Origin: Alphaproteobacteria bacterium
GTDB taxonomy: Bacteria; Pseudomonadota; Alphaproteobacteria; Micavibrionales; Micavibrionaceae
Assembly: GCA_029880245.1 (NCBI GenBank)
Contig: JAOUOR010000011.1
Location: 1 to 38,166 of the forward strand
Direction of reading: 5' to 3'
Length of the DNA stretch: 38,166 nt
In this document: in pieces, positions 2,918-6,620 of the stretch
Position numbering within the stretch: the stretch's first letter is position 1
How the letters are laid out: each line of letters begins with the position of its first letter
Translations under genes and position numbers: made by a program
Notes under the pieces: generated by a model
What the model was told of the DNA's origin: nothing
The model's input: the letters and a program-made list of their open reading frames with translations, nothing else
Database searches by the model: none

Positions 2918-3490
2918 TTATGCTCCTATGGGGTTTTTCCCTCGTGAAATTGCTGCCACGCCGGTCCGGCTGACATCGACCAGACCAAGCGGACGCATCA
3001 GATCGATAAAGGCGTTGACCTTTTCCGACGTTCCCGTGATTTCAAAGACAAAGGATTCCAATGTGCTATCCACGGCGCGGGCCCGAAAAATATCGGCGCA
3101 CCGTAAAGCTTCAATGCGTTTTTCCCCTGTGCAGTTAACTTTAACCAGCGCCAGCTCCCGCTCCACATAAGCGGTTTCAATTGTTAAATCGGAAACCTCC
3201 AGAACCGGCACAAGGCGATCTAGCTGCGCTTTGATCTGATTGATAACGACCGGCGTTCCGGTGGAAACTATTGTGATGCGTGATAAATGCTGGTCCTGAT
3301 CGGTTTCCGCCACGGTCAAGCTCTCGATATTGTACCCCCGCCCTGAGAATAATCCGATCACACGCGCCAAAACGCCCGGCTCGTTATTCACCAGTATCGC
3401 CAGAATATGTGTCTCTTCTTCTTCCTGAATGGGCGCTGGCGCATAAACGCTCACGCTCTTGGTTCTTTTTTGTCTTTTCGGTTCGGTCAT
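2918..3490 (-). CDS. ilvN: Acetolactate synthase small (regulatory) subunit
   Basis: The 190-residue protein is the regulatory subunit of acetohydroxyacid synthase, the first common enzyme of valine, leucine and isoleucine synthesis. Residues about 26-100 form an ACT domain with HILAILVNNEPGVLARVIGL and GRGYNIESL, the usual valine-sensing fold; the second half is the typical IlvN/IlvH C-terminal domain. It follows ilvB by 102 bases on the same strand and overlaps the regulatory region of the next lipoprotein gene. The length fits the IlvH type (about 160-190 residues). In this family the small subunit raises activity of the large one and gives feedback inhibition by valine. Confidence 0.95.
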   Translation of the reverse strand: MTEPKRQKRTKSVSVYAPAPIQEEEETHILAILVNNEPGVLARVIGLFSGRGYNIESLTVAETDQDQHLSRITIVSTGTPVVINQIKAQLDRLVPVLEVSDLTIETAYVERELALVKVNCTGEKRIEALRCADIFRARAVDSTLESFVFEITGTSEKVNAFIDLMRPLGLVDVSRTGVAAISRGKNPIGA

Positions 3491-3592: not shown

Positions 3593-5404
3593 TCAAACCA
3601 AGCTCTTATCGAACTTATCCGCATCAGGCGATAAGATCATCTCGTTATGGGCTTTGCCGGAGGGGATCATCGGGAAGCAATTTTCCTTCTGATCGACGCG
3701 AACATCCACAATCGTCACACAATCGGTTTTCAGCATCTTCTGTATGACATCATCCAATTCATCCGGTGTGTTTGCAATAAAACCTTTGCCACCATAAGCT
3801 TCGGCCAGCTTGACAAAATCCGGCAGACTTTCGGTATAGCTTTCGGAATATCGCTCTCCGTGAAGTAATTCCTGCCACTGGCGGACCATACCCATCCATT
3901 GATTGTTCAGGATAAATATTTTCACCGGAAGGTGGTATTGTACAGCTGTGCTCATTTCCTGAATATTCATCAGGATCGAAGCCTCACCGGCGACATCCAC
4001 CACAAGCGCGTCGGGATGCGCCATTTGAGTTCCGATTGCCGCAGGCAGGCCGTAACCCATCGTACCAAGCCCCCCCGACGTCATCCAGCGATTCGGCTTG
4101 TTAAAGGACAAAAACTGCGCCGCCCACATCTGGTGCTGCCCTACTTCCGTGGTGATAAAAACCTCGCGCTTGTCCTTTTCCATGAAATAACGAAGGCGCT
4201 CTAGAGCATATTGCGGCTTTATAATTTTCTTGTCTTTCTTATAAGCCAAGCAATTTTTAGCGCGCCAGTGATCTATCTTGTCCCACCATTTGGTCAATGC
4301 TTTTTGATCGGCCTTGTAACCCTTTTTGCGCCAGACTTCCAGCATTGCCTTAAGTGCCCGCTCGGCATCTGCAACGATTGGTAAATCCACCACCACATTT
4401 TTATTAATCGAACTCGCATCAATATCCACGTGAATTTTCTTGGAATCAGGAGAAAATTTATCAATGCGCCCTGTCACGCGGTCATCAAAACGCGCACCGA
4501 TATTGATCATTACATCACAATCATGCATCGCCCAATTCGCCTCATACGTGCCGTGCATCCCCAACATCCCAAGCCACTGCTTATCATCAGCCGGATAAGC
4601 TCCAAGACCCATTAGGGTGCTCGTGATTGGAAATCCTGTTTCCCGCACCAATTCACGCAAAGCTGCGCTTCCTCCCGGGCCTGTGTTAATAACCCCGCCG
4701 CCCGTATAAAATACCGGATTTTTGGCCTCGGCCATCATTTCAACGGCCAGTTCAATCGCTTCCATATCCGGATCAATCGGCGGCTGATAATGTGTATGCA
4801 TAACCGCTTTTTCTTTTTTCGTATAAGAGCCCTTGGCAAATTGGATATCTTTTGGGATATCAATGACAACCGGACCAGGGCGGCCGGAGCGCGCAATATG
4901 AAAAGCCTCATGGACGGCGCTGGCAAGATCATTCGGATCTTTAACCAGATAATTATGTTTGGTACAGGGCCGTGTAATTCCTACTGTATCGGCTTCTTGA
5001 AACGCATCTGTTCCAATCAGAAAGGTGGGAACCTGCCCCGTGATACAAACAACGGGAATTGAATCCAGCAAAGCATCTGTCAGACCTGTCACAGCATTTG
5101 TGGCACCAGGGCCGGACGTTACAAGAGCGCAGCCCACTTTTCCGGTTGAGCGTGCATACCCTTCTGCAGCGTGCAAAGCCCCGCCTTCTTGGCGAACCAA
5201 GACATGTTTGATTTTATCCTGTTTGAAAATTTCATCGTAAATAGGAAGAACCGCGCCGCCAGGATAACCGAAAATTGTATCCACACCTTGCTCGATCAGG
5301 GCTTCAATTATGATCTCTGCGCCCGTCATTTCCTTTGCTTTTTTATTTACCTCTATCGAAGCAATCTTATCGTCTTCTTCTTTTTTTGTTTTTGTATTCG
5401 TCAT
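3593..5404 (-). CDS. ilvB: Acetolactate synthase large (catalytic) subunit
   Basis: This 603-residue ThDP-dependent enzyme joins two pyruvates to acetolactate, or pyruvate and 2-oxobutyrate to acetohydroxybutyrate. It has the N-terminal ThDP-binding region with FGYPGGAVLPIYDE and catalytic Glu73 in RQEGGA, a central domain, and a C-terminal domain with MTSGGLGTMGYGLPAAIG and ILNNQWMGMVRQWQ. The metal-binding motif reads GEAS (Glu474) where GDAS/GDGS is usual. The first 25 residues are a lysine/glutamate-rich extension ahead of the conserved TGAEIIIEAL. The start has a good site (AAAGGA, 6 bases). Expression is probably set by the attenuator at 5491-5621. The symbol could equally be ilvI or ilvG. 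Confidence 0.95.
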   Translation of the reverse strand: MTNTKTKKEEDDKIASIEVNKKAKEMTGAEIIIEALIEQGVDTIFGYPGGAVLPIYDEIFKQDKIKHVLVRQEGGALHAAEGYARSTGKVGCALVTSGPGATNAVTGLTDALLDSIPVVCITGQVPTFLIGTDAFQEADTVGITRPCTKHNYLVKDPNDLASAVHEAFHIARSGRPGPVVIDIPKDIQFAKGSYTKKEKAVMHTHYQPPIDPDMEAIELAVEMMAEAKNPVFYTGGGVINTGPGGSAALRELVRETGFPITSTLMGLGAYPADDKQWLGMLGMHGTYEANWAMHDCDVMINIGARFDDRVTGRIDKFSPDSKKIHVDIDASSINKNVVVDLPIVADAERALKAMLEVWRKKGYKADQKALTKWWDKIDHWRAKNCLAYKKDKKIIKPQYALERLRYFMEKDKREVFITTEVGQHQMWAAQFLSFNKPNRWMTSGGLGTMGYGLPAAIGTQMAHPDALVVDVAGEASILMNIQEMSTAVQYHLPVKIFILNNQWMGMVRQWQELLHGERYSESYTESLPDFVKLAEAYGGKGFIANTPDELDDVIQKMLKTDCVTIVDVRVDQKENCFPMIPSGKAHNEMILSPDADKFDKSLV

Positions 5405-5490
5405 TTTTTATCCTTTATGCCTCGCCTTCGCGTTTCGTAAATTATCCTATTTTGTGTACAATGTTTAGCCTTAATGCCAAAAAACTGCAT

Positions 5491-5515
5491 AAAAAAACGC
5501 CCCTTTTTGGGGGCG
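5491..5515 (-). terminator. Rho-independent terminator of the ilv attenuator
   Basis: On the minus strand CGCCCC (5515-5510) pairs with GGGGCG (5503-5498) around an A-rich loop, followed by seven T (5497-5491). It lies between the leader peptide and ilvB, about 86 bases before the ilvB start. Confidence 0.85.
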
Positions 5516-5557
5516 CTGCGCTTTTTGGTTTTATGCCGTTACCTCAAGCGTGCGCCC
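5491..5557 (-). promoter_or_regulatory. ilvB transcription attenuator: alternative antiterminator and terminator
   Basis: Read on the minus strand, GGGCGC (5557-5552) plus GCTT (5549-5546), inside the last leader codons, can pair with AAGC (5523-5520) plus GCGCCC (5516-5511). The second arm overlaps the 5' arm of the terminator (5515-5509), so the two structures exclude each other. A ribosome at the leader stop would mask the first arm and let the terminator form. A ribosome stalled in the Val/Leu run (5594-5565) would leave it free and allow read-through into ilvB. Confidence 0.75.
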
Positions 5558-5621
5558 TCCCGTTGAGTACGAGAGCCACAAGCACGACAAGCACAGCGTT
5601 AATATATGAGTTATTAATCAT
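5544..5621 (-). CDS. ilvL: ilv operon leader peptide (attenuation)
   Basis: A 25-codon ORF with residues 10-19 reading VLVVLVALVL. Eleven of 25 residues are branched-chain: five Val, four Leu and two Ile. It stops at 5544, ahead of a terminator hairpin and ilvB on the same strand. This is the layout of leader peptides whose translation senses charged tRNA-Val/Leu/Ile. The start has no clear ribosome binding site. A weak -10-like TAAAGT at 5633-5628 lies only 7 bases before the ATG, so a leaderless start is possible. An in-frame stop at 5633-5631 rules out a longer form. Confidence 0.8.
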   Translation of the reverse strand: MINNSYINAVLVVLVALVLNGRAHA

Positions 5622-5669
5622 ATTATGACTTTATGTGGAATTTTTTCTTTATGCAAGAAAAAATATTTT

Positions 5670-5735
5670 CCCCTCACCCAGATGCTTACGCATCTTTCCC
5701 TCTCCCCACTGGGGAGAGGGATTGAGGGAGAGGGG
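5670..5735. repeat. Pyrimidine/purine-rich palindromic repeat (type C)
   Basis: The element contains CCCTCTCCCC (5698-5707), loop ACT, then GGGGAGAGGG (5711-5720), a 10-bp perfect stem, preceded by the smaller hairpin GATGC-TTAC-GCATC. The same 10-bp stem recurs at 22570-22592 and the flanks are of the same style. It sits between the end of miaA and the ilv promoter region. It could act as a transcript end structure for miaA, but no T-run follows. Confidence 0.7.
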
Positions 5736-5738
5736 TCG

Positions 5739-6620
5739 CTAATACTGATTCCGGAACCATGTGATTTGCTGTTTGGCATATTGGCGGGTACGGGCTTGTG
5801 CCTGCTCTATTGCCTCATCTTTGGAGAGTTTTCCCCTAATATACGCCACGAGCTGCGGATAGCCCAAAGCCTTGAGGAGCGGTACATTATGATGGACTTC
5901 ACCCTCTTCTACGCGTTTATTAAAAGCCTCGACTTCCTCCAAAGCACCATTTTCCAGCATCATCAGAAAACGGCTATTACAGCGTTCATGCAATACGGAA
6001 CGCTCCGGAATAATTAGCTCCTTTTCGAAATGCCAGTTTTCCGGCGGAGCGATGCGCTCTTTTTCCTGCCATACTGACAAGGACATGCCTGTGGTTTCCA
6101 GAACCTCCCAAGCCCGCATCAGCCGCGCTGTGTGAAAGGGATGAAAGCGCTCCGCCATTTCGGGATCGCGTTTATGCAGCGCTTCATAAAAGGCTGGATT
6201 GCCTAGCTTTTTTTGCATGGCTACGGTGGCATCACGTATCTCTTGCGGAATGTCGGGCATGGGCGATAGCCCCTCGATCAGGGCTTTAATATAAAGCCCG
6301 GATCCACCAACGATAATCGGGGTTTTACCCTGCTCAAGCACTTTATGGATGAGCGGCTCGACAATCTCACGCCAATTTCCAGCTGAACACGTCTCGTTAG
6401 GGTGTAAATGGCTATAGAGTTCGTGTGGCGCTGCGCTTAAATCTTCTTCGGAGGGCTGCGCGGTAAGCTTCGGCAGTCCCTCATAGATTTGCATGGAATC
6501 ACAATTGATCACCACACCGTTTTTTTCGAGCGCCAGTTCAAGCGCGCGCGCAGACTTCCCGCTTGCCGTCGGTCCGCCAATAATATAGATGGTATGTGTA
6601 TCTTGTTGCCTATCAACCAT
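5739..6620 (-). CDS. miaA: tRNA dimethylallyltransferase
   Basis: This 293-residue enzyme adds an isopentenyl group from DMAPP to A37 of tRNAs that read UNN codons. Residues 11-20 hold the P-loop GGPTASGKSA; DSMQIYEGLPKLTAQP (about 41-56) is the substrate-binding motif with the conserved Asp and Thr. IIVGGSGLYIKALIEG and the C-terminal ARTRQYAKQQITWFRNQ are also family hallmarks. The length matches the family (about 300). It is transcribed divergently from the permease gene with only 18 bases between start codons, so each promoter must lie at least partly inside the other gene. Confidence 0.95.
   Translation of the reverse strand: MVDRQQDTHTIYIIGGPTASGKSARALELALEKNGVVINCDSMQIYEGLPKLTAQPSEEDLSAAPHELYSHLHPNETCSAGNWREIVEPLIHKVLEQGKTPIIVGGSGLYIKALIEGLSPMPDIPQEIRDATVAMQKKLGNPAFYEALHKRDPEMAERFHPFHTARLMRAWEVLETTGMSLSVWQEKERIAPPENWHFEKELIIPERSVLHERCNSRFLMMLENGALEEVEAFNKRVEEGEVHHNVPLLKALGYPQLVAYIRGKLSKDEAIEQAQARTRQYAKQQITWFRNQY

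Follow-up and report, generated by a model that had tools for sequence, protein, structure and literature searches.

Attenuators of the kind considered here have been described before for alphaproteobacterial ilvB. A leader peptide preceding alphaproteobacterial ilvB is listed as already described in PMC1273637, which ascribes it to Vitreschak et al. 2004, and the ilvBN genes of Caulobacter are reported to combine tandem Ile and Val codons with attenuation (PMC4117421; Tarleton et al. 1994). The account of Corynebacterium glutamicum ilvBNC places the transcription start one nucleotide from the start codon of a 15-codon leader and describes terminator, antiterminator and anti-antiterminator hairpins (PMC11857589). 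In Streptomyces lividans the leaderless leaders ilvL and leuL are reported before ilvBHC and leuA, the amino acid of each being matched to the product, and the leuA leader is described as having no typical terminator (PMC8079986). Mycobacterium tuberculosis ilvB1 follows, according to PMC13236596, a branched-chain uORF with two mutually exclusive structures, the antiterminator being masked once a ribosome reaches the stop codon. The trpL attenuator RNA of Sinorhizobium meliloti, rnTrpL, is reported to start at the leader AUG and to encode a 14-residue peptide, and a trans-acting role has been reported for both RNA and peptide (PMC7298713, PMC10117765). None of the paper titles listed in our literature search concerned this attenuator in Micavibrio-like bacteria, which is weak evidence, the subscription literature lying mostly outside that search.

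The locus analysed here lies in a 38,166-nucleotide stretch (the window) of contig JAOUOR010000011.1 from a member of the Micavibrionaceae, in which a leader, a terminator and the ilvB and ilvN genes follow one another on the minus strand (Table 1). The miaA gene lies upstream of the leader, on the same strand as ilvB, and ends at 5739; the end of the terminator T-run is separated from the ilvB start by 86 nt. We put at about 90% the probability that ilvB-ilvN is controlled by a ribosome-mediated branched-chain transcription attenuator sensing charged tRNA-Val and tRNA-Leu, a reading that draws on sequence comparison and on folding models. The 25-residue leader with its VLVVLVALVL run, proposed in the initial annotation of the window, was confirmed at 5621-5544. 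When the 334-nt intergenic region was shuffled 2000 times with its dinucleotide composition kept, no short ORF with nine Leu/Val in ten residues arose. Two other elements were seen nearby. Directly past miaA, at 5695-5740, CCCTCTCCC...GGGAGAGGG forms an inverted repeat rich in GC, which may be the terminator of miaA or else a repeat element. About 50 nt 5' of ilvB, within 5405-5490, lies a segment resembling AAATAGGATAATTTACGAAACGC that by eye recurs in several loci of genus g1 and in locus L006 and may represent an additional promoter or an operator.

Table 1 Features of the ilvB leader region and the genes that follow it
Feature	Position	Strand	Evidence or remark
Leader ORF, 25 codons, MINNSYINAVLVVLVALVLNGRAHA and stop	5621-5544	minus	Stop TGA 5546-5544; sequence, recurrence, shuffles
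Regulatory Val/Leu codons V10 to L19	5565..5594	minus	Leader sequence, relatives
-35 element TTGCAT, 35 nt 5' of leader ATG	5651..5656	minus	TTGC position common to leaders
-10 element TAAAGT, spacer 17	5628..5633	minus	Putative +1 at the A of the leader ATG, 5621
Segment 2: antiterminator 5' arm, also 3' arm of 1:2 hairpin	5545..5560	minus	Swap test, masked folding
Segment 3: antiterminator 3' arm, overlaps terminator 5' arm	5509..5523	minus	Swap test, masked folding
Intrinsic terminator: 8-bp stem, 6-nt loop, T-run to 5491	5491..5517	minus	Recurs in relatives
Possible 1:2 hairpin within leader, -17.0 kcal/mol	5544..5587	minus	Folding; conservation ambiguous
ilvB, acetolactate synthase large subunit, AAAGGA 5' of ATG	3593..5404	minus	
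ilvN/ilvH, acetolactate synthase small subunit	2918..3490	minus	

The stem of the terminator is formed by 5517-5510 with 5503-5496 (-14.5 kcal/mol) and is followed by T residues to 5491. The antiterminator comprises the pairs 5557-5552 with 5516-5511 and 5550-5546 with 5523-5519, extended by 5560-5559 with 5510-5509, such that the two structures (5560-5546 with 5523-5509, and 5517-5496) are mutually exclusive; the coordinates given in the initial annotation proved correct. The 236-nt region folds with z -2.28, while the 71-nt piece 5560-5490 taken alone (z -1.81) prefers the antiterminator. It should be emphasized that a terminator of this sort could arise by chance, a simple scan returning two sites in 601 nt where shuffles average 0.9, and the case rests on comparison with relatives and not on the terminator alone.

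For this comparison the ilvB protein was searched in 58 relatives and in 104 genomes of the family, 74 of which gave a match at E 1e-150 or better; the absence of a strong match in the other 30 would fit the reported lack of Ile and Val synthesis in Micavibrio aeruginosavorus (PMC3189940). A leader was called where at least seven Ile/Leu/Val occurred in 11 residues and a terminator came after the leader. By this measure leader and terminator were present in 54 of 75 ilvB upstream regions from the same taxonomic order (52/72 in the family, 2/3 outside it and 9/9 of those fetched from the source genus), and thus both the leader frame and, as set out below, the pairing recur in the upstream regions of related ilvB genes. 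The relatives' leaders have a median length of 24 codons, and 45-62 nt separate their stop codon from the T-run. In the other 21 regions the sequence examined did not contain such a leader; in one of them, from genome G094, it lies farther upstream. Three loci whose contig ends at or inside ilvB (L027, L029 and L030) were left out, two others (L135 and L148) offered less than 800 nt of upstream sequence, and the count of 75 excludes G002, a source-genus genome with a 53-residue match, and G105, a partial match whose stretch has a leader of the same kind. A covariance model, which matches its own training sequences by construction, gave 54 matches with an E-value no higher than 1e-5, spread over 53 genomes; 51 of these lie within 500 nt upstream of ilvB. 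The other three were in G094, where the attenuator precedes a gene for a PLP-dependent enzyme that lies before ilvB, in G012 (L189 480-980), where it is kept upstream of ilvC and ilvB looks by eye like an N-terminal remnant, and at G068:C32.

Leaders of the family are rich in Val (20.5% of residues, 5.1 per leader on average) and Leu (21.1%, 5.2 per leader), with less Ile (6.0%, 1.5 per leader). Asn, found mostly ahead of the Val/Leu run or in its first part, makes up a further 10.2% (2.5 per leader); such A-rich codons perhaps keep a leaderless start unstructured.

Conservation of the stems was assessed by a swap test, since RNAalifold on a MAFFT alignment, which held 43 of 45 leaders (L023 and L028 being left out), kept just five pairs. 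The test set the duplex energy of an arm and its native partner against that of the same arm and a partner taken from another species, in 45 non-redundant leaders (nine of the 54 being left out as near-identical) and 20000 permutations, which ignore the tree and do not give strict probabilities. The antiterminator (2:3) paired better with its own partner than with swapped ones (-19.1 versus -16.5, z -6.9, 0/20000), as did the terminator (3:4; -15.2 versus -12.6, z -10.4, 0/20000); the control 2:4 pairing did not differ (z +0.3, 12221/20000) and 1:3 stood weakly above swaps (571/20000). A first run on 20 sequences, two of which had mis-called T-runs, had given 18/20000 for the antiterminator and 0/20000 for the terminator. 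More than one type of Watson-Crick pair occurs at every antiterminator position from -8 to -2; these types are taken from predicted duplexes and are pairs by construction, the real test being the swaps. These sequence comparisons indicate that pairing is constrained in both stems across the family.

The mechanism proposed for the locus is as follows. Transcription would begin at, or 1-2 bases from, the leader AUG, so that ribosomes would read the leader as a leaderless mRNA. Under a shortage of Val or Leu, a ribosome coupled to the polymerase would stall within VLVVLVALVL and leave 5560-5546 free to pair with 5523-5509; the antiterminator so formed would block the terminator and the polymerase would read into ilvB. 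When Val and Leu are both plentiful the ribosome would reach the stop codon and cover 5560-5546, the terminator (5517-5491) would form and transcription would end.

Folding the RNA with the bases under the ribosome masked is consistent with this scheme, as the position of the ribosome switches the predicted structure. Of the codons in the run, the model covered V10, V12, V13, V15, L17, V18 and L19, to which the start and stop codons were added. With the ribosome at V12, V13, V15 and L17 the antiterminator has 8.5, 9.5, 10.7 and 10.8 expected pairs and the terminator 2.8, 1.1, 0.3 and 2.1, respectively. At V10 the figures are 4.2 antiterminator against 6.7 terminator pairs, and at V18 and L19, where the footprint extends over the beginning of arm 2 and abolishes the antiterminator, 0.5 antiterminator pairs each and 5.7 and 5.2 terminator pairs. 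Since V10, V18 and L19 fail to favour the antiterminator, this simple model would have its effective sensor in the middle of the run, from about V12 to L17. A ribosome at the stop codon leaves 0.0 antiterminator and 5.3 terminator pairs, and in this state some of the Val/Leu codons also pair with segment 3 in the model (the 1:3 pairing of the swap test), which shortens the terminator. The unmasked RNA, or RNA with its start codon alone covered, forms no antiterminator and about five terminator pairs, as expected of superattenuation without translation. The logic put forward in the initial annotation, that the arm freed by a stalled ribosome is masked by one that has reached the leader stop, is thus supported by the recurring leader, the species-specific stems and the masked folding.

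The same annotation had also pointed out that the leader lacks a clear ribosome site. Indeed there is no Shine-Dalgarno (SD) sequence, which is probably no defect, as a putative promoter is placed to set its +1 at the ATG and the leader is probably leaderless, with transcription starting at that codon. TTGC stands 35-37 nt 5' of the leader ATG in 44 of 53 leaders (L135, with less than 45 nt before its leader, being left out), and a -35/-10 geometry aimed at the ATG, with TTG at -34 to -38 and a correctly spaced TA, occurs in 46 of the 53, the maximum in shuffles being six. The same geometry was found at 11 of 790 control ATGs of these regions, and SD-like 4-mers precede 5 of 53 leaders. Because leader calling had favoured starts with TTG upstream, the count was repeated on leaders with a single candidate ATG, where the geometry occurred in 27 of 32; with the last ATG it was 38 of 52 and with the first 31 of 52. 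It could be argued that the attenuator is the same but has a conventional 5' untranslated region, with transcription starting well upstream of 5621 and ribosomes binding without a Shine-Dalgarno sequence. The fit to the Escherichia coli promoter consensus is weak, a scan with that consensus giving no report of a minus-strand leader promoter, and by eye several Rhodobacterales have SD-like sites before their ilvB leaders. Against such a start, which we regard as distinctly unlikely, stand the promoter geometry in leaders, including those with one ATG, its rarity at control ATGs and the scarcity of SD-like 4-mers.

The leaderless start of the proposed attenuator may extend beyond the family. A relaxed scan of 80 regions upstream of ilvB, taken from Alphaproteobacteria at large and from near relatives, picked up leaders in 27; five of these have TTGA or TTGC 33-41 nt before the start, including three from Rhizobiales (L079, L103 and L105). 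The attenuator thus looks leaderless here and in these three Rhizobiales, judging by promoter position, while several Rhodobacterales leaders have SD-like sites by eye, so the mode of start may have changed while attenuation stayed, which offers a testable point on attenuation and 70S initiation. A broader proposal is that branched-chain attenuation in the family generally runs on leaderless leaders, and would need 70S initiation at a 5'-terminal AUG, and that the terminated RNA of about 130 nt, itself a small leaderless mRNA, could act in trans, as reported for S. meliloti rnTrpL; we think it unlikely.

The hairpin and T-run might instead be merely the terminator of miaA, with the Val/Leu ORF coincidental, given that the 3' end of miaA lies upstream in the same orientation and that the hairpin is good as an intrinsic terminator. 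In 41 of the 54 leader-bearing regions, however, a motif search found no miaA C-terminus in the upstream sequence examined, and the element thus stays with ilvB and not with miaA; the leader also recurs, its arms pair in a species-specific manner and miaA is separated from it by a promoter-like site, all of which makes a miaA terminator very improbable. Control of ilvB by a protein regulator or a riboswitch-like RNA, with the leader a relic, would draw on several relatives that have no leader and carry an AT-rich block and promoter-like site by ilvB, but by eye that block is not visible before ilvB here, no Rfam family scores at its cut-off and both stems are constrained in pairing within the family, so that this explanation too is very improbable. 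At the gathering score Rfam reports two tRNAs in the window and no leader or riboswitch family; around the leader, 21 matches at E up to 10 all fall under their cut-offs, and at the gathering threshold neither the attenuator nor 16 loci from relatives and the source genome gave a match.

The AT-rich block, resembling TATAATTTTATTTCGTTTTTTGGAAT, adjoins ilvB with its promoter-like site either alone (L010, L019, L116, L145, L151 and L153) or past an attenuator (L025, L129, L131, L132, L134, L140 and L158), and is often accompanied by a CCTCC or TCTCC motif and a terminator-like hairpin. By its sequence the block would seem to be a further regulatory element, or one that replaces the attenuator; it had no Rfam match in 16 loci, including L010, L025, L116, L129, L131, L134, L145, L151, L153 and L158.

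Leaders also precede other branched-chain genes. In one genome of genus g18 (L191 530-750) an LLILALLLDL leader and a terminator stand before a leuA-like gene with an HMGL domain, and in a second (L190 490-690) a Leu-run leader and terminator lie near the end of the contig, with short frames in between; both have by eye a TTGAC promoter-like site about 36 nt 5' of the ATG. The g18 genomes are absent from the strong ilvB matches among family genomes, and the L191 leuA-like protein had no match in 38 relatives at E 1e-100. A family model located the leuA of the source genome itself, which is preceded by a short Leu-rich ORF (L197, about 1275-1331), MDVSNKTIFLLNLLLICP and stop, with TTGCAA 36 nt 5' of its ATG. 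No attenuator is claimed there, because no T-run terminator is evident in that leader region and it folds no better than shuffles (59/200). Upstream of ilvC in the same genome no Val/Leu-run leader is evident. As Leu-run leaders precede leuA or leuA-like genes and Val/Leu leaders precede ilvB, the leader codons seem to follow the product of the downstream gene.

The initial annotation had also held that one antiterminator hairpin is needed, a layout simpler than the four-segment enteric one. This is unproven, as a 1:2 hairpin is predicted within the leader (Table 1). A conserved 1:2 hairpin had been suspected by eye; as a co-varying stem it is unsupported, swaps giving 8654/20000 in the first run of 20 sequences with its two mis-called T-runs and 1529/20000, which is not significant, on the 45 leaders. 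Compared with synonymous recodings those 45 leaders are on average more structured (mean z -0.91, SE 0.12), and the leader of the window itself has a z of +0.1.

This study documents an ilvB attenuator with species-specific pairing across the Micavibrio-like family and offers an explanation for its missing ribosome site; apart from the point on the mode of start, the biology is ordinary. The locus shares with the described alphaproteobacterial ilvB leader and Caulobacter ilvBN a short branched-chain leader and attenuation before ilvB. It differs from them in its Val/Leu run, in leader length (a median of 24 codons over the relatives' leaders, where many found in other Alphaproteobacteria have 14-18) and in its apparently leaderless start. 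The M. tuberculosis ilvB1 system, of another phylum, differs in its 166-nt leader and short LVVI run (as given in PMC13236596). C. glutamicum ilvBNC, likewise from another phylum, has a near-leaderless start like the one predicted here, with terminator and antiterminator hairpins comparable to those of the locus and an anti-antiterminator in addition. The S. lividans ilvL and leuL leaders, also from another phylum, have the leaderless start that is predicted here and a similar match between codons and product, although their runs are shorter, and the leuA leader of that species resembles the leuA leader of the source genome in having no typical terminator. Finally, S. meliloti trpL is alphaproteobacterial, as is the locus described here, and its RNA starts at the AUG, as predicted here, with Trp in place of Val and Leu.
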